From the NCBI RefSeq assembly GCF_016405905.1, contig NZ_JAEFCB010000001.1:62001-126000 (forward strand): a DNA stretch of 64,000 nucleotides. The letters run 5' to 3'. The position numbers and the translations under genes are program-made. This DNA is from Variovorax sp. IB41 (lineage in GTDB: Bacteria > Pseudomonadota > Gammaproteobacteria > Burkholderiales > Burkholderiaceae_C). Each line of letters starts with the position of its first letter. Position 1 is the stretch's first letter. Positions 3 through 48,374 of this stretch are shown one piece after another. The notes under the pieces were generated by a model, which worked only from the letters and a program-made list of their open reading frames with translations, was not told the origin of the DNA and did not search any database.

Positions 3-1245
3 AGCCTGTCGACTTCGACGTCGACGGGATTGAGCACTGCGACGAGTGGCATCACAAGTTTGTCTACAGGCTTGAGCACGACCAACAGCAACGTTGACAG
101 CCTCTCGACGTCCACCTCGACGGGCTTGAGCACCGCGACGAGCGGCATCACAAGTTTGTCGACTGGGCTGAGCACTACGAACAGCAGTGTCGACAGCCTC
201 TCGACTTCGACATCGACAGGACTGAGCACCGCGACAAGTGGCATCTCAAGTTTGTCGACTGGGCTGAGCACGACCAACAGCAATGTCAACAGCCTTTCGA
301 CATCGACATCGACGGGATTGAGCACTGCGACGAGTGGCATCACAAGTTTGTCTACCGGCTTGAGCACGACCAACAGCAACGTCGACAGTCTCTCGACATC
401 GACATCAACGGGACTGAGTACCGCGACGAGTGGCATCACAAGTCTGTCTACTGGCTTGAGTACGACCAACAGCAACGTCGACAGTCTCTCGACATCGACA
501 TCGACGGGCTTGAGCACCGCGACAAGCGGCATCTCAAGTCTCTCGACTGGATTGAGCACGACCAATAGCAACGTCGACAGCCTCTCGACATCGACGTCAA
601 CGGGGCTGAGTACGGCCACGAGTGGCATCTCAAGTTTGTCGACTGGGCTGAGCACGACCAACAGCAATGTCGATAGCCTCTCGACTTCGACATCGACAGG
701 CCTGAGCACCGCCACAAGCGGAATCTCCAGCCTCTCGACGGGCCTGAGCACCGCAACCAGCGGGATCTCCAGCCTGTCCACCGGGCTGAGCACCGCGACG
801 AGCGGCATTTCAAGCCTTTCGACGGGCCTGAGCACCGCCACAAGCGGAATCTCCAGCCTCTCGACGGGCTTGAGCACTGCAACCAGCGGGATCTCCAGTC
901 TGTCCACCGGACTGAGCACGACCGCCAGCACCGTCGACAGCCTCTCGACCTCTACCTCCACAGGCCTGAGTACCGCGACAAGCAACATCTCCAGCCTGTC
1001 CACCGGCCTGAGCAGCACGACCAGCAACATCTCGAGTCTCTCGACCGGCTTGAGCACCACCGACAGCACCGTCAACAGCCTGTCGACCTCGACGTCCACA
1101 GGCTTGAGCACGGTCACGAGCAACATCGGCAGCCTCTCGACGGGCCTGAGCACGAACACCAGCGGCATCTCCAGCCTCTCCACGGGCCTGAGCACCACCA
1201 ACAGCAACTTCGCGAGCCTGTCGACCAGCGTCATCGGCGCGACGA
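3..1245 (+). repeat. Tandem repeats encoding the adhesin stalk (96-bp and 42-bp units)
   Basis: From the left edge to about 700 the sequence repeats every 96 bp (32 residues, of the type LSTSTSTGLSTATSG plus ISSLSTGLSTTNSNVDS). From about 700 to 910 five copies of a 42-bp (14-residue) unit, GLSTATSGISSLST, follow each other directly. Degenerate copies continue to about 1245. The high DNA-level identity and unit lengths divisible by three mean that copies could be lost or gained in frame. Confidence 0.9.
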
Positions 1246-2363
1246 GCGGCTTCGGCAGCCTGTCGACCGGCCTCAGCACGGTCGAGAGCAACGTCAGCAC
1301 GCTGAGCTCGACGGTCACCAGCATCTACAACGGCGGCACCAAGTACTTCCACGCCAACTCGACGGCCGGGGACGCGGATGCCAGCGGGCAGGAGGCGGTG
1401 GCGATCGGGCCGCAGTCGGTGGCGAGCGGGGCCAACTCGTTCGCCGCGGGCAACGGCGCGAAGGCGACCGAGGCGGGCGCGGTGGCGATCGGCTTCGGCG
1501 CGCAGGCGACCGGCGCCAACGCCATCGCGATCGGCACGGGCGCGCTGGCCACGGGGTCGCAGGCCATCGGCGTGGATTCGCGCGCGGGCGGTGGCGGCGT
1601 CGCGCTCGGCGACAAGGCCGATGCGGGCGGCACGCCGCTGAGCCAGGCGCAGAACATCGTGCAGGGCACGGCCGTCGGCTTCGGCGCGGTGGTGCAGCAA
1701 TCGGGCGGCGTGGCGCTCGGCGCGGGCTCGGTGGCATCGACGGCCGCGGGCGTGGCCGGCTTCGTGCCGGCGAGCGCGACGGCGCAGCAGGCGCAGGCGA
1801 TCAAGGCCACCACCGGCACACAAGCGGCGGTGTCGGTGGGCGACGCGGCCACGGGCCAGTTCCGCCAGATCACCGGCGTGGCGGCGGGCACGGCCGACAG
1901 CGACGCTACCAACGTCGCGCAGCTGCGCGCCACCACGGGCGCGGTGGCCGCGGGCAGCGTGCAGTACGGGGCCAACCCCGACGGCTCGGTCAACTACGGC
2001 CAGGTGACCCTGGGCAACGGCCAGGCGCCGGGCGGCACGCGCATCTCGAACGTGGCGCCGGGCATCGTGGCCAGCGACGCGGTCAACCTGGGCCAGCTGC
2101 AGGGCGTGCAGGGCCAGGTGCGCGACATCGCCCGCATCGCGTACTCGGGCGTGGCGATGGCCACCGCGATGAGTTCGCTGCCGCAGGCCATGACGCCGGG
2201 CAAGACGCTGATGTCGGTCGGCGTGGGCTACTACTCGGGCTACAGCGCCGTGGCCGTCGGCTTCTCGCAGCGTTCGGAGAGCGGCAGCTGGGTCTACAAG
2301 GTCAACGGCTCCTACAGCGGGCAGAAGTTCAACCTGGGGGTGGGGGTCGGCTACGAGTGGTAG
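3..2363 (+). CDS. Trimeric autotransporter adhesin (YadA-like), C-terminal part
   Basis: The frame is open from the left edge, so the true start lies outside the window. The visible protein (about 786 residues) begins with a Ser/Thr-rich stalk of near-identical repeats up to about residue 415. A YadA-type beta-roll head follows, with many AIG..A.A.G elements such as AVAIGFGAQATGANAIAIG. A neck with two DATNVAQL/DAVNLGQL-type motifs comes next. The last ~70 residues form the four-strand outer-membrane anchor, ending in an aromatic residue (GVGVGYEW). Members of this family trimerise on the cell surface and bind host or abiotic surfaces. The head sits close to the anchor and the long stalk is N-terminal to it, so more head domains probably lie upstream. 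The 3' end overlaps the convergent LysR gene by 13 bp. The family call is confident; the ligand is unknown. Confidence 0.93.
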   Translation, partial: SLSTSTSTGLSTATSGITSLSTGLSTTNSNVDSLSTSTSTGLSTATSGITSLSTGLSTTNSSVDSLSTSTSTGLSTATSGISSLSTGLSTTNSNVNSLSTSTSTGLSTATSGITSLSTGLSTTNSNVDSLSTSTSTGLSTATSGITSLSTGLSTTNSNVDSLSTSTSTGLSTATSGISSLSTGLSTTNSNVDSLSTSTSTGLSTATSGISSLSTGLSTTNSNVDSLSTSTSTGLSTATSGISSLSTGLSTATSGISSLSTGLSTATSGISSLSTGLSTATSGISSLSTGLSTATSGISSLSTGLSTTASTVDSLSTSTSTGLSTATSNISSLSTGLSSTTSNISSLSTGLSTTDSTVNSLSTSTSTGLSTVTSNIGSLSTGLSTNTSGISSLSTGLSTTNSNFASLSTSVIGATSGFGSLSTGLSTVESNVSTLSSTVTSIYNGGTKYFHANSTAGDADASGQEAVAIGPQSVASGANSFAAGNGAKATEAGAVAIGFGAQATGANAIAIGTGALATGSQAIGVDSRAGGGGVALGDKADAGGTPLSQAQNIVQGTAVGFGAVVQQSGGVALGAGSVASTAAGVAGFVPASATAQQAQAIKATTGTQAAVSVGDAATGQFRQITGVAAGTADSDATNVAQLRATTGAVAAGSVQYGANPDGSVNYGQVTLGNGQAPGGTRISNVAPGIVASDAVNLGQLQGVQGQVRDIARIAYSGVAMATAMSSLPQAMTPGKTLMSVGVGYYSGYSAVAVGFSQRSESGSWVYKVNGSYSGQKFNLGVGVGYEW

Positions 2364-3265
2364 CGGGTGGCGCGTGGTTCGGAGGAGGGCGCGAGCATCT
2401 CCTCGAACCACGTCGCCACGTGCTGCGCTTCGGGCGCGGCGTCGGGCGCGAGGCCGTAGTAGTAGCGGCTGAGCGTCATGCGCAGCGCGGGCAGCGGCGA
2501 CTGCAGCCGGCCCGAGGCCAGGTCGTGTGACACGAGCGAGGTCGGCGCGAGCGCGATGCCCAGGCCATCGACCGCCGCCTGCAGCACGAAGTGCAGGTGG
2601 TCGAACTGCAGCCGGCCCGCGGGCTTCGCGCGCGGCGCGCCGACCTGCTTCTTCCAGGCGTCCCAATCGTCCTTGCGCGTGCGGGCCGAGAGCTGCACGT
2701 GCGATGCGAGCGCGCGCAGGTCGGCGAGCGGATGCGTCTTGAACAGGGCCGGTGCGCCGACCACCAGCACCTCGTCTTCGAGAAAGGGATGCACGTCGAT
2801 GGAGGAGGGCCAGCCCTCGAGCCCGCGGCGCACCGCGATGTCGAAGCTGTCGGTGGCCTGTTCCGGCATCACCGTGCTCGTGATGACCTGCGGCTCGATG
2901 TCGGGGTGGCGCTCCACGAACGCCGGCAGGCGCGGAATCAGCCAGCGCACGGCGAACGAAGGCCGCACGTTGATCCGCACCGCGCGGGCCGGGCCTTGCG
3001 CCTGCAGCGCCTGGGCGGCTGCGTTGATCTGCGCCAGCGCCGGGCCGGCCTCGGCGAAGAACTGCTGGCCCTCCGCCGTCAGCGTGACCTGCCGGACGCG
3101 CCGCTCGAACAGCGCGACGCCCAGGCATTCCTCCAGGCTCTTGATCTGCCGGCTCACCGCGCTATGCGTGACGTGAAGCTCCTGCGCCGCGCGCGTGAAA
3201 CTCTGGTGGCGGGCCGCGGCGACAAAGGCGCGCACGGCGTTCAGGGGCGGTTCTCGAAGCGGCAT
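2351..3265 (-). CDS. LysR-family transcriptional regulator
   Basis: 304 residues, the usual length for LysR regulators. The N-terminal winged helix-turn-helix covers about residues 5-65 (NAVRAFVAAARHQSFTRAAQ, then HVTHSAVSRQIKSLE). A type 2 periplasmic-binding-like effector domain of the GcvA type makes up the rest. I chose the ATG at 3265, which begins MPLREPPLNAV; an in-frame ATG seven codons upstream is possible. The gene diverges from the MFS gene at 3344 across only 78 bp, the classic arrangement in which a LysR protein controls its neighbour and itself. The inducer cannot be read from sequence. Its 3' end overlaps the adhesin's 3' end by 13 bp. Confidence 0.9.
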   Translation of the reverse strand: MPLREPPLNAVRAFVAAARHQSFTRAAQELHVTHSAVSRQIKSLEECLGVALFERRVRQVTLTAEGQQFFAEAGPALAQINAAAQALQAQGPARAVRINVRPSFAVRWLIPRLPAFVERHPDIEPQVITSTVMPEQATDSFDIAVRRGLEGWPSSIDVHPFLEDEVLVVGAPALFKTHPLADLRALASHVQLSARTRKDDWDAWKKQVGAPRAKPAGRLQFDHLHFVLQAAVDGLGIALAPTSLVSHDLASGRLQSPLPALRMTLSRYYYGLAPDAAPEAQHVATWFEEMLAPSSEPRATRYHS

Positions 3266-3343
3266 GTGTGCGATTTTCTCACGCATGCGGGGCGTTAATC
3301 TCGTTTGTCAGCCCGCCTTGCCGCGGCGCACCATGCGGTCTCG

Positions 3344-4525
3344 ATGTCTTCAACGCCCCTCACACCTGCCCCCGCTCCCGCGCCCAGCGCCACCGACCTG
3401 AATTCCCGCCACGCAGCCATCGCGCTCGGGCTTTCACTGCCGGCCGACGTCGTTCTCTACCTGCTGCTGCCGATGTATGCCAGCCAGTTCGGCGTGACGC
3501 TGGCCGAGGCCGGCATGCTGCTGGCGGCCAACCGGCTGGTGCGCATCGCCGGCTACCGCTGGGTGGCGCGCTTCTATGCGCGCAACGGCGACCGGCCGAC
3601 CTGCACCATCGCCGTCGTGGCGGCCGCCGTGTGCGGCGTGGGCTACGCGACGCTCTCGGGCTTCTGGGCGCTCTTGCCGTTGCGGTTGATGTGGGGGCTG
3701 TGCTTTGCGGCGCTCAATCTCTCGACACAGGCGCTGGCCACGGCCGACCCCATCGGCGCGGCGCGCCGCAATGGACGCTCGCGCGCGTTCATCGCCATGG
3801 GGCCGGTGATCGCGCTGCCGCTGGGCGCGTTGATGGCGCACTGGATCGGGCCGCGCGCGATCTTCGGCATCCTCGCGGTGTTCTCGCTGCTGGCGGTGTT
3901 CGCGGCCCGGCGGCTGCCCTCGGCGCCGCATCGCTCGCAGAAGCCCACGCGGCGCTTCCAGTGGCCCAACAGCCTGGACGGCTGGTCGTTCATGGAAGGG
4001 CTGGCGCTCGACGGGCTCTTCATCGTCGGCCTCTCCTACCTCGGCAAGGACCTGCTGCCGGGCGGCGCGGTGATCGTGGCCGGCCTGCTGATGGCGCTGC
4101 GCTACCTCGCGGAGATTTTCCTGAGCCCGGTTGGCGGGCATCTGGCCGAGCGCTTCGGCGCGGAGCGGCTGCTGGTGAGCCTGTCGCTCGTGACGGCCGT
4201 GGCGCTCGTGGGCTTCGGTCTCGGCTGGCTCTGGAGCTGCGCGGCGCTCATCGTGGTGTTGCGCGCCTTGCAGCTGCCCTTGCTGTCGCCCATCGTGGCG
4301 CGCCGCACGCCGGGGCCCGAGCGCGTGCAGGCGCTGGCCGCGCGCTCGGTGTGGCGCGACATCGGCGCCGGAGCGGGCCCGCTCATCGCGGGGCTGCTGC
4401 TGCCGGTCGCATCGCCGCCGTGGATCTACGGCATCGCCGCAGTGCTGCTGGCCATCATGGCGATCGCCTGCGGCCGGAATCCGTCGCCCCATCCGACACC
4501 TCACGCTCAAGAGCCAACGTCATGA
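3344..4525 (+). CDS. MFS transporter
   Basis: 393 residues with about 12 hydrophobic segments. The early part reads ADVVLYLLLPMYASQFGVTL, and a loop carrying RFYARNGDRP corresponds to the conserved MFS loop 2-3. It is a major facilitator membrane transporter of unknown substrate. The ATG at 3344 (MSSTPLTPAPAPAP) is preferred over one 13 codons earlier because a short Pro/Ala tail precedes the first membrane helix. It is divergent from the LysR gene at 3265, probably its regulator. Its stop overlaps the next start in an ATGA at 4522-4525, so the next gene is translationally coupled to it. Confidence 0.88.
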   Translation: MSSTPLTPAPAPAPSATDLNSRHAAIALGLSLPADVVLYLLLPMYASQFGVTLAEAGMLLAANRLVRIAGYRWVARFYARNGDRPTCTIAVVAAAVCGVGYATLSGFWALLPLRLMWGLCFAALNLSTQALATADPIGAARRNGRSRAFIAMGPVIALPLGALMAHWIGPRAIFGILAVFSLLAVFAARRLPSAPHRSQKPTRRFQWPNSLDGWSFMEGLALDGLFIVGLSYLGKDLLPGGAVIVAGLLMALRYLAEIFLSPVGGHLAERFGAERLLVSLSLVTAVALVGFGLGWLWSCAALIVVLRALQLPLLSPIVARRTPGPERVQALAARSVWRDIGAGAGPLIAGLLLPVASPPWIYGIAAVLLAIMAIACGRNPSPHPTPHAQEPTS

Positions 4526-5142
4526 ACACTTCCCACGCCATCGAAACCGTCGCGCAGCTCGAGGCCTTGTTCGGTCAGCCGGGCGAGGCCTCGCTCAAGA
4601 AGGAAGTGGACTATCTGCATCCGGCTTACCAGGCGCTGATCGCCGCATCGCCCTTCGCGGTGCTCGCCACCACCGGCCCCGGCGGCCTCGATGCCTCGCC
4701 GCGCGGCGACCCGCCGGGCTTCGTGGTGGTGCAGGACGAGAAGACGCTGCTGCTGCCCGAGCGCCGCGGCAACAACCGCATCGACAGCCTGCGCAACATC
4801 GTGGCCGATCCGCGCGTGGCCTTGCTGTTCCTGATCCCCGGTGTGGGCGAGACGCTGCGCGTGAACGGAAGAGGGCGCATCACCGTCGCGCCCGACGTCA
4901 TGGCGCGCTTCGCGGTGGAGGGCAAGCTGCCGCAATGCGTGATCGAGGTGCAGGTAGAGACGGTGTACTTCCAGTGCGCCCGCGCGATCCAGCGCTCCAA
5001 GCTCTGGGCGCCGGTGGCGGCGGATGCGAAGCGCGAGGTGCCGACGGCCGGGGCCATTCTTTCCGCGCTGACCGATGCGGCGTTCGACGGGGCGGCCTAC
5101 GACCGTGAGCTGCCGGCACGGCAGCAGTCGACCTTGTACTGA
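4522..5142 (+). CDS. Pyridoxamine 5'-phosphate oxidase-family FMN protein
   Basis: 206 residues matching the PPOX split-barrel family subgroup annotated as MSMEG_1061/DR2398-like. Visible family features are the central strand region FAVLATTGPGGLDASPRGD, the LLLPERRGNNRIDSLRNI segment and the later GETLRVNGRGRIT. Such proteins bind FMN or related cofactors and usually act as small-molecule reductases or oxidases; the substrate here is unknown. The start codon overlaps the MFS stop by four bases, so the two genes form a coupled pair probably controlled by the divergent LysR regulator. Confidence 0.85.
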   Translation: MNTSHAIETVAQLEALFGQPGEASLKKEVDYLHPAYQALIAASPFAVLATTGPGGLDASPRGDPPGFVVVQDEKTLLLPERRGNNRIDSLRNIVADPRVALLFLIPGVGETLRVNGRGRITVAPDVMARFAVEGKLPQCVIEVQVETVYFQCARAIQRSKLWAPVAADAKREVPTAGAILSALTDAAFDGAAYDRELPARQQSTLY

Positions 5143-5146
5143 GAGC

Positions 5147-5591
5147 ATGGACAACCACATCACTTTTCGCACCGCGGCGCTGGCCGACCTGCCCGCCATC
5201 GTCGAGTTGCTGGCGAACGACGAACTGGGGCGCCGCCGGGAAATGACCGGGCCGACGCTGGACGCGCGATACCTCGCTGCGTTCAACGCGATCGAGGCCG
5301 ATCCGAATCAGCAGCTCGCCGTTGCAGTGGACGGGGCGAACGCGGTGGTCGGCACGTTGCAGCTGTCGTTCATACCGGGCATCGCCCGCACGGGCGCATG
5401 GCGCGGCCAGATCGAGGCGGTCCGCATTGCAGAGGCGTTGCGCGGTTCGGGCGTGGGCCATTGCGCAGTGCAGGGCGCGCGGCTGCACGCTGGTGCAATT
5501 GACCACGGACAAGGGCCGGCCGGACGCGCACCGCTTCTACGAAAAACTCGGCTTCGTCGCGAGCCACGAAGGCTACAAGCTGGTTCTCTGA
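5147..5591 (+). pseudogene. GNAT N-acetyltransferase, frameshifted
   Basis: The first ~105 codons from the ATG at 5147 encode a GNAT domain (MDNHITFRTAALADLPAIVE to IEAVRIAEALRGSGVG). The frame then changes near 5455, and the conserved C-terminal half continues in another frame (ARGCTLVQLTTDKGRPDAHR, then FYEKLGFVASHEGYKLVL), stopping at 5589-5591. Several residues of the acetyl-CoA-binding helix are missing at the junction. The junction lies on GTGGGCC, and loss of about 20 bp between two short TGGGC copies would explain it. Unless this is a sequencing error, the gene is inactive. It follows the PPOX gene by 4 bp. Confidence 0.85.
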
Positions 5592-5703
5592 GCGCGTCTG
5601 AAAAGCTGCTTTCGAGCGCCGAACTGACCATTGTGTTTCGAATGTTCAGCAAGATGTCACGCAAAGCAACGGCCAGTGGCGGCAGGGCCTTCCAGGGGGA
5701 GTC

Positions 5704-5727
5704 GGCAGTGTAGACTGCCAGGTTTTT
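5704..5727 (+). terminator. Possible intrinsic terminator upstream of the DUF3348 operon
   Basis: A six-base stem GGCAGT/ACTGCC with a GTAG loop is followed by AGG and five T residues. It lies 14 bp before the DUF3348 start, so it could end transcription from the PPOX/GNAT side or attenuate entry into the next operon. The stem is short, so the call is tentative. Confidence 0.35.
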
Positions 5728-5740
5728 CCATCTGGCGGTA

Positions 5741-6436
5741 ATGGTGCAAGTGTCAAGGCGCACAGGCTTCACCGGCTCGGCGCTGATTCGCTTGCTCGCT
5801 CGACTGACCGACATCGAAGTCCCCGAGCCCAAACAGGCTTTTGCGGATCGATTGAGTCAATGGCTCGGCTGGACCGATGCCATCTCCCTTTCTGCAGCGT
5901 TGAACGGCGGCGTGGCCGCCGTGCCTTCTGGCGCGCGCGCAGCCGGCAATCCCGAAGAACGCGAATGCGAGCGCGTGCGCAGCGCGATGGCCAACGCCAT
6001 CGCGGAAGACATGCACAGCGTAGCCAAAGACAACGCCGCCGACTTCCCGGCCTATCGCCGGCGCTACCACGCGAGGCAGCAGGCCATGGCGGCGAGCATC
6101 GGCCCCTTGCGCGGCCGCCTGCGCTCGACGCTGGCGACGCGCTCGCCCGACATGGCGCGGCTCGCGGCGGTGGATGTGGTGATGGAACAGGTGCTGGGCG
6201 CGCAGGAGCATCGCCTGCTGGCGAGCGTGCCGGCGACGCTCGAGAAGCACTTCAAGCGCCTGAGCCGGGCGCATGCAAGCGCCGATGCAGATGCCAGCAC
6301 CGAGGCTGACACCGAGGCCGAGCCCGGCGCATGGCTGGCCGTGTTCCGCAAGGACATGCACGACGTGCTGCTCGCCGAGATGGACGTCCGATTTCAACCG
6401 GTCGAAGGGCTGCTCGAAGCCCTTCGCGCGAGCTAA
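5741..6436 (+). CDS. DUF3348 family protein
   Basis: 231 residues, predicted soluble. It opens MVQVSRRTGFTGSALIRLLA, typical of DUF3348, and contains a largely helical middle with an Ala/Asp/Glu-rich linker near residues 180-200. The C-terminal segment ends VRFQPVEGLLEALRAS. No catalytic motif is visible. It is the first gene of a four-gene set with DUF802, OmpA and DUF2894 proteins, separated from DUF802 by only 10 bp. The family is known to co-occur with these partners in Burkholderiales, but no function is established to my knowledge. From context I infer a cytoplasmic partner of the membrane motor encoded next. Confidence 0.85.
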   Translation: MVQVSRRTGFTGSALIRLLARLTDIEVPEPKQAFADRLSQWLGWTDAISLSAALNGGVAAVPSGARAAGNPEERECERVRSAMANAIAEDMHSVAKDNAADFPAYRRRYHARQQAMAASIGPLRGRLRSTLATRSPDMARLAAVDVVMEQVLGAQEHRLLASVPATLEKHFKRLSRAHASADADASTEADTEAEPGAWLAVFRKDMHDVLLAEMDVRFQPVEGLLEALRAS

Positions 6437-6446
6437 CCAGAGTTTC

Positions 6447-8564
6447 ATGACCCAACTTCTTCATCGCATCGTCTTCGTCGTCGGCCTGGCCGCGGTCTGC
6501 TGGGTCGGCATCGGGTACATCGGCTCGAACCCGCTGGCGTTGGCGATCACCGTGCTCATCGGCGCGTTCTACGTGGTCGGCGCGCTCGAGCTGCACCGCT
6601 TCGGGCAGGCCACGACCACGCTGGCCGGCGCCGTAGCGGACTTGACCGGGCCGCCGGCCACCCTGGGCGAATGGCTCGACAAGCTGCATCCGTCGCTGCG
6701 CAACGCGGTGCGCCTGCGCATCGAGGGCGAGCGCGTCGGCCTGCCCGGCCCGAGCCTCACGCCGTACCTCGCGGGCCTCTTGGTGCTGCTGGGCATGCTG
6801 GGTACTTTCCTCGGCATGGTGGTCACGCTGAACGGCACGGGCACCGCGCTGGAGAGCGCGTCGGACCTGCAGGCCATGCGCGCCTCGCTGGCCGCGCCGG
6901 TCAAGGGGCTGGGCGTGGCGTTCGGCACCTCGCTCGCTGGCGTGGCGACGTCGGCGACGCTGGGCCTTCTGTCGGCCCTCGCGCGCAGAGACCGGATGCA
7001 GACCGCGCAGTCGCTAGACAGCCGGATCGCCACCACCTTGCGCGTCTTCTCGCAGGCCCATCAGCGTGAAGAGTCCTTCAAGCTGCTGCAGCGCCAGAGC
7101 GAGGCGATGCCCGCACTGGTCGACCAGCTGCAACTGATGATGGCGACGATGGAGCGTCAGAGCCACGCCTTGAACGAGCGCCTGATTTCCAGCCAGGACA
7201 GCTTCCACGGCAAGGCCGAGTCCGTGTACGCGGGCCTGGCTTCGTCCGTCGGCCAGTCGCTGAAAGAGGGCCTTGCCGACAGCGCCCGCATCGCCGGCGC
7301 GACGATCCAGCCGGTGGTCGAAGCCACCATGGCCGGCATCGCGCGCGAGACGGCCGCGCTGCACGCCACCGTCGAGCAGAGCGTGCAACGGCAGCTCGAC
7401 GGCCTCTCCACCCGCTTCGAGTCCAACACCGCCACCGTGGCGGACATCTGGAAGACGGCGCTCGCCGGTCAGCAACGCACGAGCGAGGCGCAAGCCAACG
7501 ACCTGCGCGCCACGCTCGCGCAGTTCACGCAGACCTTTGAAGAGCGTTCGGCTTCGCTGGTGGACGGCGTTTCCACGCGCCTTGAAACCACGGTCGAGCG
7601 CGTGTCCGACAACTGGCGCAGCGCGCTCGCGCAGCACGAACGCGCGAGCGAAACGCTGTCGGGCGACACGCACCGCGCGCTCACGGCCGCCGCAGCCACG
7701 TTCGAACAGCACTCGGCATCGCTGCTGAAGACGGTGGGCCAGGCGCACACCGACCTGCAGAGCGAGATGGCATCGCGCGACCAGCAGCGCCTCGCCACCT
7801 GGACCCAGGCGCTCGAAGCGATGGCCGTGTCGCTCCAGCAGGAATGGCAACAGGCCGGTGCCCGCAGCGAAGCCCAGCAGCAGGAAATCTGCAAGACGCT
7901 GGCACAGACCGCCAACGACATCTCCGCCCAGAGCGAAGCGCACGCAAGGAGCACCATCGCCGAGATCGGCCAGCTCATGCAGGCCGCCTCCGAAGCGCCC
8001 CGCGCCGCGGCTGAGGTGATCGCCGAGCTGCGCCAGAAGCTCTCGGACAGCATGGCGCGCGACAACGCGATGCTCGACGAGCGCAGCCGCATCCTCGGCA
8101 CATTGGAGACACTGCTCGATGCGGTGAACCACGCCTCCACCGAGCAGCGCAGCGCCATCGATGCGCTCGTGGCCACCTCGGCCGATCTGCTGGACCGCGT
8201 GGGCTCGCGCTTCACCGACAAGGTCGATGCGGAGACCGGAAAGATGGCCGATGTCGCCGCGCAGATCACCGGCAGCGCCGTCGAGGTGGCTAGCCTGGGC
8301 GAGGCCTTCGGCTTCGCCGTGAAGCTCTTCACCGAATCGAACGACAAGATGAGCGCGCACCTGCAGCGCATCGAAGGCGCGCTGGGCAAGTCGATCGCGC
8401 GCAGCGACGAGCAACTGGCGTACTACGTGGCACAGGCCCGCGAGGTCATCGACCTGAGCATCTCGTCGCAGAAGCAGATCGTCGAAGACCTGCAGCAGCT
8501 CGCCGTGCAGCGTGATCAGCGCGATCAACGCGATCACCGTGCGACAGCGGGCAGCGAAGCGTGA
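6447..8564 (+). CDS. DUF802 protein, MotA/TolQ/ZorA-like motor subunit with long helical tail
   Basis: 705 residues. Four hydrophobic helices are visible, at about 8-24, 27-46, 105-127 and 157-178. The last two carry the MotA/ExbB/TolQ signature: GMLGTFLGM at 116-124 and FGTSLAGVATSATLG at 159-173, with Thr120, Thr161 and Ser162 placed as pore-lining hydroxyl residues. After residue 180 comes a ~525-residue soluble helical tail rich in Ala/Gln/Glu. It includes DUF802 repeats of about 54 residues (near 322-430; pattern W..ALA.Q.R.SE then FE..SASL). Length and layout resemble ZorA of Zorya defence systems, a stator with a long cytoplasmic tail. The gene ends in TGATG shared with the OmpA gene. 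Motor homology is inference from motifs; the biological role is unknown. Confidence 0.85.
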   Translation: MTQLLHRIVFVVGLAAVCWVGIGYIGSNPLALAITVLIGAFYVVGALELHRFGQATTTLAGAVADLTGPPATLGEWLDKLHPSLRNAVRLRIEGERVGLPGPSLTPYLAGLLVLLGMLGTFLGMVVTLNGTGTALESASDLQAMRASLAAPVKGLGVAFGTSLAGVATSATLGLLSALARRDRMQTAQSLDSRIATTLRVFSQAHQREESFKLLQRQSEAMPALVDQLQLMMATMERQSHALNERLISSQDSFHGKAESVYAGLASSVGQSLKEGLADSARIAGATIQPVVEATMAGIARETAALHATVEQSVQRQLDGLSTRFESNTATVADIWKTALAGQQRTSEAQANDLRATLAQFTQTFEERSASLVDGVSTRLETTVERVSDNWRSALAQHERASETLSGDTHRALTAAAATFEQHSASLLKTVGQAHTDLQSEMASRDQQRLATWTQALEAMAVSLQQEWQQAGARSEAQQQEICKTLAQTANDISAQSEAHARSTIAEIGQLMQAASEAPRAAAEVIAELRQKLSDSMARDNAMLDERSRILGTLETLLDAVNHASTEQRSAIDALVATSADLLDRVGSRFTDKVDAETGKMADVAAQITGSAVEVASLGEAFGFAVKLFTESNDKMSAHLQRIEGALGKSIARSDEQLAYYVAQAREVIDLSISSQKQIVEDLQQLAVQRDQRDQRDHRATAGSEA

Positions 8565-9211
8565 TGACCGAGGACCTCGACGCCGGCACGGAAGCGACGG
8601 TCCCGGTCTGGGCCGTGTTCGGCGACCTGATGTCGGGCCTGCTCGGCGCCTTCGTGCTGATCCTGGTCTGCGTGATCGGCATGCAGCTCGAACTCGCGAC
8701 CAAGCTCGAAACCGAGGTCAAGCAGCGCAAGGTCGAGGCCGAACGGCTGCAGACGCTCGAGCAGGCGCTGGCCGGGCCGCTCGCGGCGGGCCGGGTGACA
8801 TTGAACAACGGCCGCATCGGCATCAGTGGCAGCGTGTTGTTCGCGCTGAACTCCGCCGAGCTGCAGCCCGAAGGCCGGCAACTGCTCAAGAGCCTGGCCG
8901 CGCCGCTCACCGCGTACCTGCAAGCCCGCGACGAGATCCTGATGGTGAGCGGCTTCACCGACGACCGACAGGTGCGCGGCGGCAACCGCCAGTTCGCGGA
9001 CAACTGGGAGCTCTCGGCGCAGCGCGCCCTGACGGTGACCCGCACGCTGATCGAAGAGGGCATTCCGTCGTCCGCGATCTTTGCCGCGGCGTTCGGCGCC
9101 GAGCAGGCGGTGGCGTCGAATGCCGATGCCGATGGGCGCTCGAAAAATCGGCGCGTGGAGATGGCGCCCACGCCGAAGCGCTCCGACGCAAAGACAAAGC
9201 CGCGTGAGTAG
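8564..9211 (+). CDS. OmpA-domain membrane protein, MotB/ZorB-like
   Basis: 215 residues from the ATG at 8564; a GTG at 8561 is the alternative. A short cytoplasmic tail leads into one membrane helix, PVWAVFGDLMSGLLGAFVL. Its Asp21 matches the ion-carrying Asp of MotB-type stators. A coiled linker (about 45-75) precedes an OmpA-like peptidoglycan-binding domain (about 80-200), with SGFTDDRQ, NWELSAQRA and SKNRRVE at the expected places. In MotAB, ExbBD and ZorAB motors this subunit anchors the stator to the wall and carries the ion. The pairing with the preceding MotA-like gene, which it overlaps by one base, supports a dedicated motor. The next gene starts inside its 3' end. Confidence 0.88.
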   Translation: MTEDLDAGTEATVPVWAVFGDLMSGLLGAFVLILVCVIGMQLELATKLETEVKQRKVEAERLQTLEQALAGPLAAGRVTLNNGRIGISGSVLFALNSAELQPEGRQLLKSLAAPLTAYLQARDEILMVSGFTDDRQVRGGNRQFADNWELSAQRALTVTRTLIEEGIPSSAIFAAAFGAEQAVASNADADGRSKNRRVEMAPTPKRSDAKTKPRE

Positions 9212-9809
9212 CAGCGACGAATCCAACGGAATCGATGCAACGCTCGGCGCATGGCGCGAGCGCGGGGCGCATCGCCTCGACCCGGTCCGCTTCCATTTCA
9301 TCGAGACGCTGGCCCGGCGCGCGGCGGACCACGGCGGGGAGGCGCGGCGCATCCTGGACGAAAAAGTCACCGCGCTGCTCGCAGCCTATGGCGACGATCT
9401 CGAAAAGATGCCGGATGCGCAAGCCACCGCGGTCAAGCCACCTGCGCACGGGCCGCTCGCGGAACTGACGGTCCACCTCGCGCAGCACGCATCGTCCGAG
9501 CGGATGGACCTGGCAACCCACGAGCTGAAGGTGCTCCCGTTTTTCCGGAGCACGTGGTCCAAGCTCAGCGCCGAACGGCGGCTCACGCAATCGCTGGCGA
9601 AGCTGCCGCAGAACGCCGGCCCGCTCAACTCGCACAACCTCGTGCATCAATCGCTCACGCTGATGCGAGAGCTCTCGCCCGAATACCTCAACCGGTTCGT
9701 GTCGTATGTCGATGCGCTGCTGTGGGTCGATCAGGCGAACGCCCCGGCGAGCAACGAAGCGCCGCGCGCCGAGGGCGGCAAGAAGACTGCGCGCAGCAAG
9801 TCCGGCTGA
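9204..9809 (+). CDS. DUF2894 family protein
   Basis: 201 residues from a GTG start at 9204 that overlaps the OmpA gene by 8 bp, showing translational coupling. It is predicted soluble and helical. Recognisable DUF2894 segments are LDPVRFHFIETLARRAADHG, LKVLPFFRSTW and QNAGPLNSHNLVHQSLTLMR, followed by a Lys/Ala-rich tail. No enzymatic motif is apparent. Its fixed position as the last gene of the motor cluster suggests that it works with the DUF802/OmpA pair, perhaps as a cytosolic effector or regulator. That role is inference only. Confidence 0.83.
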   Translation: MSSSDESNGIDATLGAWRERGAHRLDPVRFHFIETLARRAADHGGEARRILDEKVTALLAAYGDDLEKMPDAQATAVKPPAHGPLAELTVHLAQHASSERMDLATHELKVLPFFRSTWSKLSAERRLTQSLAKLPQNAGPLNSHNLVHQSLTLMRELSPEYLNRFVSYVDALLWVDQANAPASNEAPRAEGGKKTARSKSG

Positions 9810-9824
9810 CCCGCAGCGATCGGC

Positions 9825-10253
9825 TCAGCGGAGCGCTGCCCGGCGCCGCTCGCGCAGTCGCAACGCCAGCAGGCAAACCGTGGCCGCAAGCAACAGCGCC
9901 GCGGCAACGACTTCCGACAGGATCGTGAGGTTCGCCGTGCGGGTGTGCCAGGCCATCGGCGCCAGCGCATAGTGGCCGAGTCCGTCGAAGCCGAGCAGGG
10001 CATAGGCGGCGACAAGCAGAAGGCCCGTCATCACGAACCGCTTGCGGATGAGCAGGAACCCGAGCACCCCCACCGACGTGATGCCCACCCAGGCCGCATA
10101 GACCTTCGCGCTGGTGAGCGAAGCCGGAAGATTCGGGTACTCGCAGATGAACTCGGCGTTGTGGGTGAAATGTCCGAGGCTCGTCAGGAAGTACGCCACG
10201 GTCAGGACGGCGAGCAACTTGGGGAGGCCGGAGAGGCGAGGGGTTGAATTCAT
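9825..10253 (-). CDS. Small four-helix membrane protein, unknown function
   Basis: 142 residues with four hydrophobic segments, including LLAVLTVAYFLTSLGHFTHN, VGITSVGVLGFLLI and a C-terminal ALLLAATVCLLAL helix, ending in an Arg-rich tail. The first helix is followed by His and acidic residues (GHFTHNAEFICEYPN). I do not recognise the family. It is convergent with the DUF2894 gene (15 bp apart) and lies 7 bp upstream of the next minus-strand stop, so it may begin or close a small unit of its own. Confidence 0.7.
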   Translation of the reverse strand: MNSTPRLSGLPKLLAVLTVAYFLTSLGHFTHNAEFICEYPNLPASLTSAKVYAAWVGITSVGVLGFLLIRKRFVMTGLLLVAAYALLGFDGLGHYALAPMAWHTRTANLTILSEVVAAALLLAATVCLLALRLRERRRAALR

Positions 10254-10260
10254 CCGGGCC

Positions 10261-10617
10261 CTACTTTTTTCGTGTGACTGGCACGTTCACGTTCCACTTC
10301 TGCAGCGTGGTGCCCACGGCGCGTGCGCAGGTGACCATGACGTTGCGTCCCGTCAGCCCGTAGCTCTTGGGTGTCCATCGGGTTTCGAGCGGGACGCTGC
10401 ACCGCGGGACCAGGATTTTCATGTTCGGATCGAGCGCCACCCATCCGCTGTGCGTGCGCGCGTTCTCCTTCGCGACAAAATCGCGAGCCTCCTGCCGTAT
10501 CTCGAAGAGGCCATGCATCTCGGCGGTGGAGCGGTCGGTTTCGATGCGCCACGCAGCGAAGCAGCGCGCCGACGCAAGCGACAGAAACAGCAGCAGCAAG
10601 GCGCGGCTGCTGTTCAT
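10261..10617 (-). CDS. Exported small protein, unknown function
   Basis: 118 residues with a clear signal peptide (SSRALLLLFLSLASARCFA, probable cleavage before AWRIETD). The mature part has two cysteines, at positions 73 and 97 of the precursor, that could form a disulfide, and it ends in a basic TRKK. No domain is recognised. It is located 8 bp downstream of the MFS stop at 10626 on the same strand, so it is likely co-transcribed with that transporter. Confidence 0.65.
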   Translation of the reverse strand: MNSSRALLLLFLSLASARCFAAWRIETDRSTAEMHGLFEIRQEARDFVAKENARTHSGWVALDPNMKILVPRCSVPLETRWTPKSYGLTGRNVMVTCARAVGTTLQKWNVNVPVTRKK

Positions 10618-10625
10618 CGCAGCGC

Positions 10626-11930
10626 TCAGGCCCGCCCCGCCGCCGCCTGCTCGGCCCGCGCATCGTGCCCGATGATCAGCACCAGCACGAACGCCACCGC
10701 GGACAGCAGCGCGAGAAAGATCACCGCGTAGATGTCGTTGCCCATGCGGTCCTTCAGCGCGCCGAAGATCGTCGGGCCGATGTAGCCGCCCAGGTTGCCG
10801 ATGGAGTTGATCCACGCGATGCCGGCCGCGGCCGCGGTGCCGCTCAGGATGGCGGTGGGCAGCGTCCAGAACATCGGCAGCGCGCTGAAGATGCCGAATG
10901 CGGCGAGCGTCACGGCCGCCATCTTGGGCACCGGCGCGCTGGTTTCCGCGGCCGCGACGAGGCCCACGAAGATGCACGCGAGCGGGATCAGCAGGAACCA
11001 CTTGCGCTCCTTCTTCGCATCGGAGGCGCGGGTCCAGAACACCATCGCGATGGCGCCGATCAGGTACGGAAAGGCGTTGATGAAGCCGATCTCCACGTTG
11101 CCCAGACCTCCGAAGCCCTTGATGATCTGCGGCAGGAAAAAGCTCAGGCCGTACAGCGGCACGGTGATGCCCATGTAGACGAACCCGAGGCCGATCACGC
11201 GCGGATTCAGCAGCGCCTGCTTCCATGAAATGGTGTGCAGCGCCTCGCGGCTGCGACGCTCGCCGTCGAGCGTGTGCTGCAGCCAGTCGCGCTCTTCGTT
11301 GGAGAGCCACTTCGCATCCTTCGGGCCATCGGGCAGGTAGAAGAGGATGAAGAAGGTCAGGATCAGCGAGGGAATCGCCTCCAGGATGAACAGCCACTGC
11401 CAGCCGTGCATGCCGCCCACGCCATCCATGTTGAGGATGTAGCCCGAAATCGGCGAACCGATCACCGTGGAGATCGGAATGGCGAACATGAACCAGCCCA
11501 CGATGCGCGCGCGGTACGCCGCCGGAAACCACAGCGTGATGTAGAAGATCACGCCCGGAAAGAAACCGGCCTCGGCAATGCCGAGCAGGAAGCGCACGAC
11601 GTTGAAGCTGGTCGAGCCGCCCACCCAGGCCTGGGCCGCGGAAAGAATGCCCCAGCTGAACATGATGCGGGCGATCCAGCGGCGTGCGCCGAAGCGCTCC
11701 AGCGCCATGTTGCTCGGCACCTCGAAGAGAAAGTACGCGAGGAAGAAGATGCCCGCCGCGCTGCCGAACACCGCGGCGGTGAAGCCCAGGTCCTTGGACA
11801 TCGCCGACCCGGCAAAGCCCAGGTTCACGCGGTCCAGGTAGGCGATGAAGTAGCTGATCATCAAGAGCGGCAAGAGCCGCCAGCTGATCTTGGAGATGGT
11901 TCTCTGTTCGACGGGGTTCACGGTGTGCAT
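10626..11930 (-). CDS. MFS transporter, anion:cation symporter (ACS) type
   Basis: 434 residues, 12 predicted helices. The N-terminus (RLLPLLMISYFIAYLDRVNL, then GFAGSAMSKDLGFT) is the hallmark of the ACS family that takes up organic anions such as tartrate, phthalate or glucarate. Further family features are EVPSNMALERFGARRW and GIAEAGFFPGVIFYITLWFP. The substrate cannot be assigned because no catabolic enzyme is adjacent. It probably leads a two-gene unit with the exported protein downstream. The start ATG at 11930 gives a 15-residue cytoplasmic lead. Confidence 0.88.
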   Translation of the reverse strand: MHTVNPVEQRTISKISWRLLPLLMISYFIAYLDRVNLGFAGSAMSKDLGFTAAVFGSAAGIFFLAYFLFEVPSNMALERFGARRWIARIMFSWGILSAAQAWVGGSTSFNVVRFLLGIAEAGFFPGVIFYITLWFPAAYRARIVGWFMFAIPISTVIGSPISGYILNMDGVGGMHGWQWLFILEAIPSLILTFFILFYLPDGPKDAKWLSNEERDWLQHTLDGERRSREALHTISWKQALLNPRVIGLGFVYMGITVPLYGLSFFLPQIIKGFGGLGNVEIGFINAFPYLIGAIAMVFWTRASDAKKERKWFLLIPLACIFVGLVAAAETSAPVPKMAAVTLAAFGIFSALPMFWTLPTAILSGTAAAAGIAWINSIGNLGGYIGPTIFGALKDRMGNDIYAVIFLALLSAVAFVLVLIIGHDARAEQAAAGRA

Positions 11931-11991
11931 GTCTCCTGTTATGTGAAGGTTTTGGTGGAGCCTGTCCGGTGACAGGTGATGGGAAAAATGC

Positions 11992-13857
11992 TCAGGAGGA
12001 CGCCTGGTCCTCTTCTTTTTGCTGTGCCCTCATGACCTGGTGGCGTTGCCAGTAGTAGCCGACGGCGCCGCGGAAGTTGTCTTTCTGCTTGCCCAGGCCC
12101 GCCACCTTGACCTTGGTGGTGCGCGCGCCCAGCATGCCCTTGTCGTGGTGCGTGACGATCAGCGTGTCTCCGAAGCTGCCGTCCTTGTAGGTGAGGCCCT
12201 TCACCTCGTCCCACGCGATGGTCGAGCCGCCATCCGCGCTCGGGTGCAGGCCCGTGTAGTCGATCACGATGCGCTCGCCGTTCTTCAGCGCGAACTCGAC
12301 CGGCGGAAAGTGCCGCAGCACCACGACGCGCTCTTCCTCGGTGGCGGGTTCGTAGCGGTAGGCCAGGGCCAGATCGTGGTTCTGCACGAAGCGCTGCTCG
12401 TACTCGCTCCACAGACGCTGCTCGATCGCGAGGGCCGTCTCGATGTCGTCGGCCCACGTCGCTTGCGGCGCGGTCGCGACGATGGCGCCGTACACGCTCT
12501 CGGGCACATGGTGGTCGACGTTGCGCATGCGTTCGAGCAGTGGTGGATGGCTGTCGTAGGGGTGGGGCACGTCGGCGGTCTTCATCGTCTCGATGAACGC
12601 CTCGGAGCTCGCGTAGGGCGGCAGCCCGTCGGCCACGAAGCTGGCAATGCCCAGCGCGCCGTCGTGCTGGCGGTTCTGCGCGAAGAGCTTCTGCTCGACG
12701 TCGTTGCGGTAGCTCGCGTAGGCCGAGATCTTGATGAGCGACTGCACGATGGCGCTGGGGGCCGTGAGGCTCGCCGACACGCGGTCGGCCTTGTACTCGC
12801 GCTCGCGGCTGTCGCGCGCCAGGGCGAACTCGAAGATCATGCGATACAGGCGCAGCAGGTAGTGCGCCACGATGGTGAGGCCGCCGCTGCGCATCTTCCA
12901 GGTGTACTGGTCGAACTGCCGAAGCTTCGGGCCGAGCGCCGCGCTGCTGCGGGTGTCGCCGCCGCCCAGGTGGGCCAGCTCGTGCGCGAGCACCGCATCG
13001 GCTTCCGATTGATCGAGCACGCGCAGCAGCGGAAGGCTCACGAAGAGCGTGCGGCCTTGCAGCGTGCGGCCGCCGACTTCGATGGGCGCTTCGGTCACGA
13101 AGAAATTGGTGTCGATGCCCGCGACGATCTGGTCGGGCGGCGCGGTCTGCACGCGGCCCGCGAGCTGGCGGATGCGCTCCCACAGGCGCGGCGCGTCGCC
13201 CTCGGCGATGAGCTCGCCGTCGATCGCGTTGACCGAGGGCAGCTTCTTGAACAGCGTGTACACCGCATAGAACACGGCCGCCGCCGCCGCCACGCCGGCG
13301 ATGATGATGAGCTTGACGTAGTAGCTGTGCCAGAAGAAGGCGGTGAGCCAGAACGAGAGCCACACCAGCATCGCGCTCTGCAGCACGACCTCGATGGCGC
13401 TGGAGACGGTCATGAGCCGCCATCCCGCCACGAAGCTTGCGTAGCGCAGGCCCCGATTGGCGAAGGCCAGCGCGCCCAGCACGAGGGCCGCCGCGAGCAG
13501 CGCCGCGCCGAGCGCCAGCGTCCAGAGGGCGGCGCGGTCGGCCCAGTGGAACTGCCACTGCATCGAGTAAGGGCTGCACACCTTGTCGTGGAAATTCCTG
13601 TCTTCCGGCGCAGTGGCGTCGCAGGCCTTGGAGAGCGGGTGGCTGCGGTAGAACGCGGTGGCTTGCGCCTTGTCGTCGGCCGAGAGACGGGCATCGGAGC
13701 CGATGCGCTTTTCGATCGACTGCAGGAACTCGGCGTCCTGCGAGCGCAGTGCGTACTCGGTGAAGACCAGCGTCGCCGCCGGAATGGCGAAGAGCGACAC
13801 GAGGGTCAGAAGAAACACGCGAAGCAGATCGGCATGGATCGTTCGGGCGAAGGCCAT
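11992..13857 (-). CDS. M48-family membrane zinc metalloprotease
   Basis: 621 residues. The start at 13857 (MAFARTIHAD) has a strong Shine-Dalgarno (AGGAGG) 7 bp upstream and gives an immediate N-terminal membrane helix (about 12-33). A periplasmic loop with two Cys (80, 94) follows, then helices around 110-133, 150-175 and 181-203. The catalytic zinc motif HELAH is at 292-296 and the third ligand is probably Glu354 (EYKADR), as in HtpX/Ste24-like peptidases. The last ~150 residues form an extra basic, beta-rich domain ending QQKEEDQASS that is not part of the peptidase fold. The topology suggests a membrane-anchored protease for envelope quality control. Confidence 0.87.
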   Translation of the reverse strand: MAFARTIHADLLRVFLLTLVSLFAIPAATLVFTEYALRSQDAEFLQSIEKRIGSDARLSADDKAQATAFYRSHPLSKACDATAPEDRNFHDKVCSPYSMQWQFHWADRAALWTLALGAALLAAALVLGALAFANRGLRYASFVAGWRLMTVSSAIEVVLQSAMLVWLSFWLTAFFWHSYYVKLIIIAGVAAAAAVFYAVYTLFKKLPSVNAIDGELIAEGDAPRLWERIRQLAGRVQTAPPDQIVAGIDTNFFVTEAPIEVGGRTLQGRTLFVSLPLLRVLDQSEADAVLAHELAHLGGGDTRSSAALGPKLRQFDQYTWKMRSGGLTIVAHYLLRLYRMIFEFALARDSREREYKADRVSASLTAPSAIVQSLIKISAYASYRNDVEQKLFAQNRQHDGALGIASFVADGLPPYASSEAFIETMKTADVPHPYDSHPPLLERMRNVDHHVPESVYGAIVATAPQATWADDIETALAIEQRLWSEYEQRFVQNHDLALAYRYEPATEEERVVVLRHFPPVEFALKNGERIVIDYTGLHPSADGGSTIAWDEVKGLTYKDGSFGDTLIVTHHDKGMLGARTTKVKVAGLGKQKDNFRGAVGYYWQRHQVMRAQQKEEDQASS

Positions 13858-14057
13858 GGGTAACTCCTCCTGGAAGGCAGATGCTGTGAGTTGTTGTGGA
13901 AGCGGTCCGGGAAGCCGATAGCGTAGCCGCCGATCGTGTCGCTGGGAAATCCGGGGCCGCGTCAAGCATGTGCGACTGCCGACCAGCCGGCAAATAAGGT
14001 TATCGCTTTTGCATCGTTCCACGGCCCGCAGCGCAGGTATAGCCTTCGGCGTCACGT

Positions 14058-47657: not shown

Positions 47658-48374
47658 TCAGCCCATGTGGATCTGTTCGGCATCGACCTTGACCAGCGCC
47701 TTGCTGGTGACAAGCGTGTTCTTCGCGTGCAGGCGCAGCGTCTCCTTGGCCTGCATGTCGATCTGCCCGGCGCGCACCTGCTCGACTTCTTCGGTCAGGC
47801 GAAAGCTCGAACGCGTGAGCACGCTCAGGCGGTCGAGCACCGTCTCCAGCGTGCGACCCACGAAGCGCGCGACCAGCGTGGTCACGCGCACCTCGGCGCC
47901 GCGGTAGTCCATGTCGGCGATATCCAGCTGCGCCTTCTGCGCCTGCATGCGCAGCTCGGGCGCATCGAGCGCGATGCGGCCCTGGCGCGAGCGGATGGTG
48001 AGATCGCCGTCGGTGACGATGTGCGCCTGACTCGCATCCGCCTGCGTGATGACCGCGATCAGGTAGACGTGCTCGCGGTGCGGCCCGGCCATAAGCACGG
48101 TGTCGCCGGCGGCGGGTTGCAGCAGGCAGCTCGCGGCGCGCGGGCACTGCCAGGGGGCGCCGCCGTCCTGCGGCGCGACGAGAAAGCCGCCTTCCGCCAC
48201 GGGCTGCACGACGGTGCCGAGGGCGCTGCCGGTCCACGGAGAGACGGCGGTCGCGACGGAGGAGGGCAGGGGCTTGCGCAGGAGCGCCTGCATGTCGCCT
48301 TCGGGGGCGTGCGCGGGCATGTCCGGCACGAGGTGCGGCGCTTCTATGGATTCGCGGATGGCGCGATGGGTCAT
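47658..48374 (-). CDS. DUF3540 protein (type VI secretion accessory)
   Basis: 238 residues. LGTVVQPVAEGGFLVAPQDG and VYLIAVITQADASQAHIVTD form the conserved N-terminal beta part. LRMQAQKAQLDIADMDYRGA and the following helix-rich stretch resemble the gp5/VgrG-type repeat region. DUF3540 genes are regularly found with vgrG, DUF2169 and PAAR-like genes, but their job is not defined. The start overlaps the upstream pentapeptide gene's stop by 4 bp. Confidence 0.85.
   Translation of the reverse strand: MTHRAIRESIEAPHLVPDMPAHAPEGDMQALLRKPLPSSVATAVSPWTGSALGTVVQPVAEGGFLVAPQDGGAPWQCPRAASCLLQPAAGDTVLMAGPHREHVYLIAVITQADASQAHIVTDGDLTIRSRQGRIALDAPELRMQAQKAQLDIADMDYRGAEVRVTTLVARFVGRTLETVLDRLSVLTRSSFRLTEEVEQVRAGQIDMQAKETLRLHAKNTLVTSKALVKVDAEQIHMG

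Follow-up and report, generated by a model that had tools for sequence, protein, structure and literature searches.

A probable Zorya type III operon of Variovorax: helical register of the ZorA tail and changing chromosomal position

The ZorAB complexes of Zorya types I and II are ion-driven motors with a 5:2 composition, as determined by cryo-electron microscopy, and they require ion flow, the peptidoglycan-binding domain, and the ZorA tail (PMC11890865). Type I systems employ ZorC and ZorD, and type II systems employ the nickase ZorE. Payne et al. (2021, PMC8565338) defined a third type, in which genes of the DUF3348 and DUF2894 families flank the Zor motor genes; their text prints 'zorBC' for the motor pair and their discussion gives ZorA, ZorB, ZorF, and ZorG. 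That paper also reports that a type III system of Stenotrophomonas nitritireducens, when placed in E. coli, reduced the plaquing of one or more of the phages tested. In the literature that we searched, no Zorya type is less well understood than type III, whose partner proteins lack any recognised enzyme domain. Here we describe a four-gene operon of Variovorax sp. IB41, a soil bacterium with a 6.87-Mb genome, which is very probably a Zorya type III anti-phage system. The operon lies at positions 5741–9809 of a 64,000-nucleotide stretch of contig NZ_JAEFCB010000001.1, hereafter the window.

Identity of the operon and its motor proteins

All four genes matched Zorya type III profiles of PADLOC-DB (E-values from 1.9e-74 to 0; Table 1), and ZorA was matched by four ZorA3 profiles (E = 0 to 8.7e-303, best 1258 bits). 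As in the type III definition, ZorB carries a membrane aspartate and an OmpA-type domain (PADLOC ZorB3, PF00691) with predicted peptidoglycan binding, and the DUF3348 and DUF2894 genes adjoin zorAB and are co-directional with them. The operon thus consists of the same four gene families, adjacent and in one direction, as the published type III system (PMC8565338), from which it differs in its organism and in being near-universal in Variovorax at a variable chromosomal position. DUF3348 is ZorF and DUF2894 is ZorG in the 2021 and 2025 papers on Zorya, and the naming is reversed in PADLOC-DB. The swapped labels were found in profiles PDLC00652–PDLC00658 of PADLOC-DB 2.0.0, where DUF3348 is ZorG. 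We use the family names here.

The first-pass annotation of this DNA had described the four-gene set with its coordinates, helices, motifs, and ZorB Asp21, all of which proved correct on re-reading and in Pfam searches, and its two coupled flanking genes were indeed DUF3348 and DUF2894 (PF11828, PF11445). It had also suggested that the system was not yet described. This suggestion did not hold, since all four type III profiles match and a 2021 paper had already described the type, with phage-protection data for another member. We found no structure or mechanism for DUF3348 or DUF2894 in the literature searched, which is the point in favour of a new motor-based signalling or defence system; however, with four of four genes matching profiles of a type published with these very partners (PMC8565338), such a system is scarcely credible and was rejected as a candidate. 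The system is of an already known kind, to which the window operon adds a member.

The absence of zorC, zorD, and zorE, which had been noted from the sequence, is expected, since type III carries DUF3348 and DUF2894 instead. Neither zorC nor zorD was found among the neighbours of zorAB, to which the check for zorD was confined, and no match to EH_Signature (ZorC) was found in the strain's own genome. No zorE, an HNH nuclease gene, lay beside zorAB, where the neighbours were DUF3348, DUF2894, MFS, LysR, PNPOx, and M48 genes. The operon resembles Zorya type I (zorABCD; Shewanella 8VVN, PMC11890865) in the ZorA motor region, the ZorB match, the long tail, and the conserved Asp, but it has no ZorC or ZorD. 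The ZorA2 and ZorB2 profiles of Zorya type II (zorABE) matched the window proteins weakly (3.7e-10 and 1.8e-7), but the operon has no adjacent ZorE and its ZorA has a longer tail than the Sulfuricurvum protein of 378 residues in the 2025 paper.

To compare the motor with solved structures, we searched the Protein Data Bank (PDB) with alignment profiles. The ZorA alignment consisted of the window protein and 24 of 78 ZorA proteins from named loci, and the ZorB alignment of the window protein and 33 of 54 listed ZorB proteins. The best match of the ZorA profile was the Zorya type I ZorA chain 8vvn_C (7.2e-10, profile positions 108–179), which is labelled 'MotA/TolQ/ExbB proton channel domain-containing protein' in the PDB. 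Apart from it, none of the 26 PDB chains matched at E ≤ 1 had a MotA, ExbB, or TolQ label, and no flagellar MotA chain was among them; the remaining matches were apolipoproteins and other helical proteins, on the tail. No ZorA match to PF01618 (MotA_ExbB) was listed up to E = 10, a search in which the Pfam filters discard most weak matches. The ZorB profile matched the type I ZorB chain 8vvn_B (3.2e-7, positions 8–206), and its best PDB match was a MotB protein (1.1e-17), with MotB and OmpA-type proteins outscoring 8vvn_B on the periplasmic domain. ExbD was not found among the ZorB Pfam matches up to E = 1.

We rejected a stator of the flagellar, Tol, or Exb kind on the Pfam null for MotA_ExbB and the PDB matches of ZorA, and the earlier preference for a ZorA/ZorB-type motor was supported. 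The membrane-region profile search that the first-pass annotation had proposed against ZorA, MotA, and ExbB yielded the similarity to 8vvn_C. Flagellar MotAB and PomAB share with the operon the MotB-like periplasmic domain of ZorB and the membrane Asp, whereas ZorA has no Pfam MotA_ExbB match, carries a long coiled-coil tail, and is coupled to DUF3348 and DUF2894. Unlike TolQR and ExbBD, the window motor has a partner protein with an OmpA domain and no ExbD match. The two ZorA motifs noted earlier, GMLGTFLGM and FGTSLAGVATSATLG, were present, and residues T120, T161, and S162 of the motor helices were invariant in all 25 aligned ZorA proteins. The OmpA domain of ZorB and its Asp21, which was invariant in all 34 aligned proteins, were likewise confirmed.

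The two partner proteins were predicted by AlphaFold2 (AF2) to be helical. The model of DUF3348 was all-helical (57-row alignment; pLDDT 85, pTM 0.81), and that of DUF2894 was helical with low global confidence (59 rows; pLDDT 76, pTM 0.44). Neither protein had a significant fold match or sequence match to solved structures, and no further Pfam domain was found in either up to E = 1. No recognised enzyme domain in the two proteins indicates how type III systems stop phage.

In the window operon, five ZorA would presumably encircle two ZorB. Phage injection would perturb the envelope, after which ZorB would dock on peptidoglycan and ions would flow through the site of Asp21 and the Thr/Ser residues. 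ZorA would then rotate, and its coiled-coil tail would convey the motion to the cytoplasm. Signalling by the tail to the two cytosolic proteins, which the first-pass annotation had suggested, is plausible: DUF3348 and DUF2894 may sit on the ZorA tail as regulators or effector adaptors, and these helical, probably tail-bound proteins would serve as the effector or recruit one.

Length and register of the ZorA tail

ZorA has a four-helix membrane motor domain followed by a long cytoplasmic tail with DUF802 repeats. In the window protein, four hydrophobic segments occur in approximately residues 1–180, the fourth being weak (1.51 on the Kyte-Doolittle scale), and the tail has ~525 residues. Among 91 ZorA reading frames of the genus that were not cut by contig ends, 51 were 695–705 aa long and the others 601–1027 aa, with one at 473 aa. 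The longest ZorA in the loci read was 1229 aa (Achromobacter pestifer, L098), and other examples were 940 aa (L132, L134, L142, L144) and 829 aa (L182). Type III ZorA thus ranged from ~601 to 1229 aa across the loci read, with tail length varying ~2-fold. The length of ZorB was near constant in the genus, with a median of 217 aa and a range of 193–232 aa. Long runs of short repeats, with lags of 22, 33, 44, 66 and so on up to 143 residues that were all multiples of 11, were seen in the ZorA tails of L182 and L149, unlike the large modules of other lineages.

Tandem modules were found in 94 of 206 ZorA proteins, a set that counts some genomes twice, and in 21 of 59 non-redundant species, for which the trees need a minimum of 9 to 11 changes. 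In one clade, the same 87-aa unit extends a ZorA of ~696 aa to ~785, 876, and 962 aa. Proteins shorter than 590 aa (L138, 473 aa; L231, 222 aa) were excluded from the repeat-unit analyses. A periodogram of the tail showed a mean hydrophobic period of ~3.66–3.67 residues with a second peak at 3.57, and the heptad period of 3.5 was absent from it.

The 14 distinct unit lengths (47–204 aa) lay near integer multiples of 3.645 residues, with a phase concentration of R = 0.94 that was reached by none of 20,000 random sets (best 0.77). These units were picked by hand as basic lags with at least 75% identity over 60 residues, excluding lag 55 (the common DUF802 repeat), multiples, and sums; they are distinct lengths and not proven independent events, since lineages may share unit ancestry. 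The result was similar for the eight lengths of units with at least 93% identity (R = 0.94, 1 of 20,000) and for the 11 lengths left after possibly composite units were excluded (R = 0.945, 0 of 20,000). A wider list of 21 unit lengths gave R = 0.86 (0 of 20,000), although its weak repeats could favour in-phase lags. Pairwise insertions and deletions (indels) in the tail pointed in the same direction, but much more weakly and with more noise (R = 0.38 for 72 distinct lengths, reached by 1 of 20,000 random sets; 0.57 when weighted by counts), while the indel phase was R = 0.22 in DUF3348 and R = 0.10 in DUF2894.

Tail growth therefore seems to occur mostly in register-keeping steps, which suggests a shaft that is locked in register and free in length. 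A tail whose length is free and whose register is kept fits a continuous shaft better than a ruler of fixed length. In the mechanism that we propose, lineages would extend the tail by tandem duplication of whole modules (47–204 aa), each amounting to nearly a whole number of helical turns of 3.645 residues, and such in-phase modules would keep the rotation or twist at the membrane aligned with the DUF3348 and DUF2894 partners.

Since register-keeping duplication is expected of any continuous coiled coil, the rule supports a continuous and phase-sensitive shaft but is not in itself proof of torque transmission. The phase of the modules could thus be trivial for a long coiled coil and uninformative on torque or signal transmission, an alternative that we consider nearly as likely as not to be correct. 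Insertions that break the register should be selected against in any continuous coiled coil, the rule was derived from ZorA tails alone, and the indel test gave the weaker signal, which counts against selection for register as well. Against this alternative, the rule still sets an ordered, continuous rod apart from both a flexible linker and a ruler of fixed length, and indels in DUF3348 and DUF2894 were less phased than those in the tail. The natural series of tail lengths (~601–1229 aa) makes the role of the tail testable. If the tail is a ruler, function should be lost on lengthening; if it is a shaft, in-phase changes should be tolerated and out-of-phase changes should not. We found no paper on the length or phase of the type III tail, in a search that did not cover the 2025 Nature paper on Zorya, and we claim no priority.

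Our tentative joint reading is that the type III ZorA tail is a shaft selected for register and not for length, and that the operon is a core yet relocating immune motor of Variovorax. We hold this reading at slightly less than an even chance because the unit list was hand-picked and the comparison of gene neighbourhoods described below has no control gene set for rearrangement.

Retention, relocation, and selection in Variovorax

Of 100 species sampled in the genus, 97 had DUF3348, almost always as a single copy; among good genomes the count was 84 of 86. In genus samples of the same size, the Zorya type I gene zorC was found in 2 of 100, and for hsdR 36 of 100 passed the cut-off and 45 of 100 had a match at E ≤ 0.001. 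The two high-quality genus genomes in which no DUF3348 match was found (G046 and G080) both had hsdR over the cut-off. Beyond the genus, DUF3348 occurred in 56 of the 200 family genomes, representing 42 of 141 genera (two of these genomes belong to Variovorax itself), in 24 of 399 genomes of the order over the cut-off (25 at E ≤ 0.001), and in 8 of 369 of the class.

The survey of operon conservation proposed in the first-pass annotation showed that the four-gene set was kept, with order and strand conserved and all four frames clear of contig ends, in 90 of 95 same-genus loci (window included); the remaining five were interrupted by contig ends. Among the 90, DUF3348 was broken by a stop in L201 (genome G064) and ZorA was short (473 aa) in L138. 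Two genomes with DUF3348 matches (G037 and G068), whose loci were not fetched, are outside this count. Of 40 loci taken from the 54 genomes of other genera of the family in which a match was found, 39 had four uncut frames, and ZorA was interrupted at 222 aa in the other-genus locus L231.

The chromosomal address of the operon varied. The MFS and PNPOx genes that flank it in the window were shared by only 7 of 94 other same-genus loci. In 59 species with gyrB data we counted 23 neighbourhoods, which imply no fewer than 26 changes along the gyrB tree and 24 along the operon tree, counts that may include general rearrangement. The species marker was gyrB alone; 59 of 60 loci were kept and L325, a paralogue in G003, was dropped. 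The trees were of a quick kind and came with long-branch warnings. Retention in 97 of 100 species, with 23 addresses in 59 genomes, makes this an unusual case of immune-gene retention.

Empty sites were searched for in 12 genomes with the flanks of the window operon (2395–5142 and 10626–14048). The flanks were separated by 397 bp in G089, 436 bp in G086, 393 bp in G016, 368 bp in G061, and 55 bp in G025, where a flanking MFS gene was also missing, and they were 2.2 kb apart in G098. In the seventh genome, G066, ~32 kb of other DNA lay between them (C1:6366642–6398992), which suggests an insertion-prone spot. In the other five, at least one of the two flanks was missing from the matches listed. 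All seven genomes carry the operon elsewhere, and empty sites in operon-carrying relatives indicate that the operon itself moved.

Distances of the operon proteins correlated with those of gyrB (rho = 0.51 for gyrB protein, best of 500 permutations 0.20; rho = 0.49 for gyrB DNA, best 0.29). The two trees shared 22 of 56 splits, and of the strong splits, 12 of 33 in the gyrB tree and 9 of 30 in the operon tree were contradicted by the other tree. The correlation and the shared and contradicted splits suggest vertical inheritance near the tips and exchange or replacement at greater depth. We rejected the idea that the operon belongs to an element carried by phages or plasmids. DUF3348 had no match (E ≤ 1e-5) in 50,697 phage records, and ZorB matched 27 of 72,556 plasmid records at E ≤ 1e-20, of which the 25 listed were all 0.59–3.5 Mb in size and are read as chromids and megaplasmids. 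There was no tRNA gene in the window, and no obvious terminal repeats were seen at the operon among the repeats listed (20 of 43 direct families and 25 of 68 inverted pairs).

All four genes are under purifying selection. Between the window and seven close relatives, the median dN/dS was 0.037 for ZorB, 0.10 for ZorA, 0.23 for DUF2894, and 0.32 for DUF3348. The mean distances of the two cytosolic partner proteins were 0.40 and 0.45, versus 0.06 for gyrB. These two change fastest, as would be expected if they meet variable targets.

Several observations weigh against an immune role of the operon. Near-universality in the genus is unusual, unlike the patchy spread usual for defence systems. In Burkholderia cenocepacia K56-2, knock-down of predicted defence systems, Zorya III included, reportedly left fitness against phage Bcep176 unchanged, although transcription changed for the leading one or two genes of its Zorya I and Zorya III operons (PMC12584637). 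We found no phage test of the window strain's operon in the literature searched, and no recognisable effector enzyme was found in DUF3348 or DUF2894. The Variovorax operon could accordingly be mainly a housekeeping envelope motor, sensing peptidoglycan or envelope stress, with phage defence being secondary or adopted in other lineages. Such a role would fit the retention of the operon, usually once, in nearly all species compared with zorC and hsdR, the strong purifying selection on ZorB and ZorA, and the irrelevance of Zorya III against one phage in B. cenocepacia. It would also fit the window surroundings, since no other defence gene family was found in 27 further window open reading frames (ORFs) scanned by Pfam (5, 10, and 10 in separate scans, plus the two MFS and M48 neighbours), with PADLOC run on the operon only. 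The genes scanned around the operon were transporters, regulators, and metabolic genes, with no evident defence island in this part of the window ORFs.

We nevertheless regard a mainly housekeeping role as unlikely. A type III system reportedly protected E. coli from phage (PMC8565338), the operon is patchy outside the genus, and its address changes and the fast divergence of its partners suit immune genes better. A Variovorax study counts Zorya III among its strain's defences (PMC11953036). An anti-phage system of Zorya type III is thus still the reading that we prefer for the window operon.

Gene layout and surroundings

The coordinates of the features are given in Table 1. The four genes lie on the same strand, with a gap of 10 bases after the DUF3348 gene and overlaps thereafter: ZorA and ZorB overlap by four bases with the GTG start or one base with the ATG start, and ZorB and DUF2894 by eight bases. 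The ZorA start was set at 6447, from which relatives align, although a longer ORF begins at 6273. The nearest named relatives of ZorB were those of Variovorax sp. ZS18.2.2 and V. paradoxus MEDvA23, with 98% identity.

Table 1. Positions of operon features and of the stretch missing from relatives, in window coordinates.
Feature	Position	Strand	Evidence
DUF3348 protein	5741..6436	+	231 aa; PF11828 8.7e-84; PADLOC ZorG3 6.6e-91; AF2 all helices
ZorA (type III, probable)	6447..8564	+	705 aa; PADLOC ZorA3 E=0, 1258 bits; DUF802 1.1e-33; 8vvn_C 7.2e-10 with profile
ZorA motor signature, GMLGTFLGM (residues 116-124) to FGTSLAGVATSATLG (159-173)	6792..6965	+	alignment of 25; HMMER alignment to 8vvn_C
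ZorA tail (from ~residue 206)	7062..8561	+	periodogram; tandem modules in relatives' equivalent region
Best DUF802 match, ZorA residues 320-372, one of two stretches	7404..7562	+	PF05650; self-similarity at lag 55 residues
ZorB (type III, probable), one membrane helix and OmpA-type peptidoglycan-binding domain	8561 (GTG)/8564 (ATG)..9211	+	PADLOC ZorB3 6.5e-115; PF00691 3.9e-19; 8vvn_B 3.2e-7
ZorB Asp21 codon (ATG numbering), predicted ion-binding Asp	8624..8626	+	invariant in 34/34 aligned ZorB
OmpA domain of ZorB	8837..9151	+	PF00691, residues 93-197 numbered from GTG start
DUF2894 protein	~9204..9809	+	201 aa from GTG; PF11445 1.8e-57 (ORF scanned 9081-9806); PADLOC ZorF3 1.9e-74; AF2 helical
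Stretch absent at equivalent site of relatives	5143..10625	.	flanks 55-436 bp apart in 5/12 genomes tested

A simple scan found no sigma-70-like site. Terminator-like sites numbered nine against 3.1 expected, and one of them (5704–5719) was immediately upstream of the operon. Directly upstream of the operon, at 5147–5600, is a gene resembling GNAT-family acetyltransferases that by eye seems to be frameshifted, its N- and C-terminal parts being in different frames. The start of the window (30–2363) holds a repeat-rich protein that, named by eye, resembles trimeric autotransporters of the YadA type, with SLSTGLSTTNS repeats, and is possibly truncated at the window start. A DUF3540 protein is encoded on the reverse strand at 47661–49379 (Pfam, 5e-46); this family often lies near type VI secretion genes.

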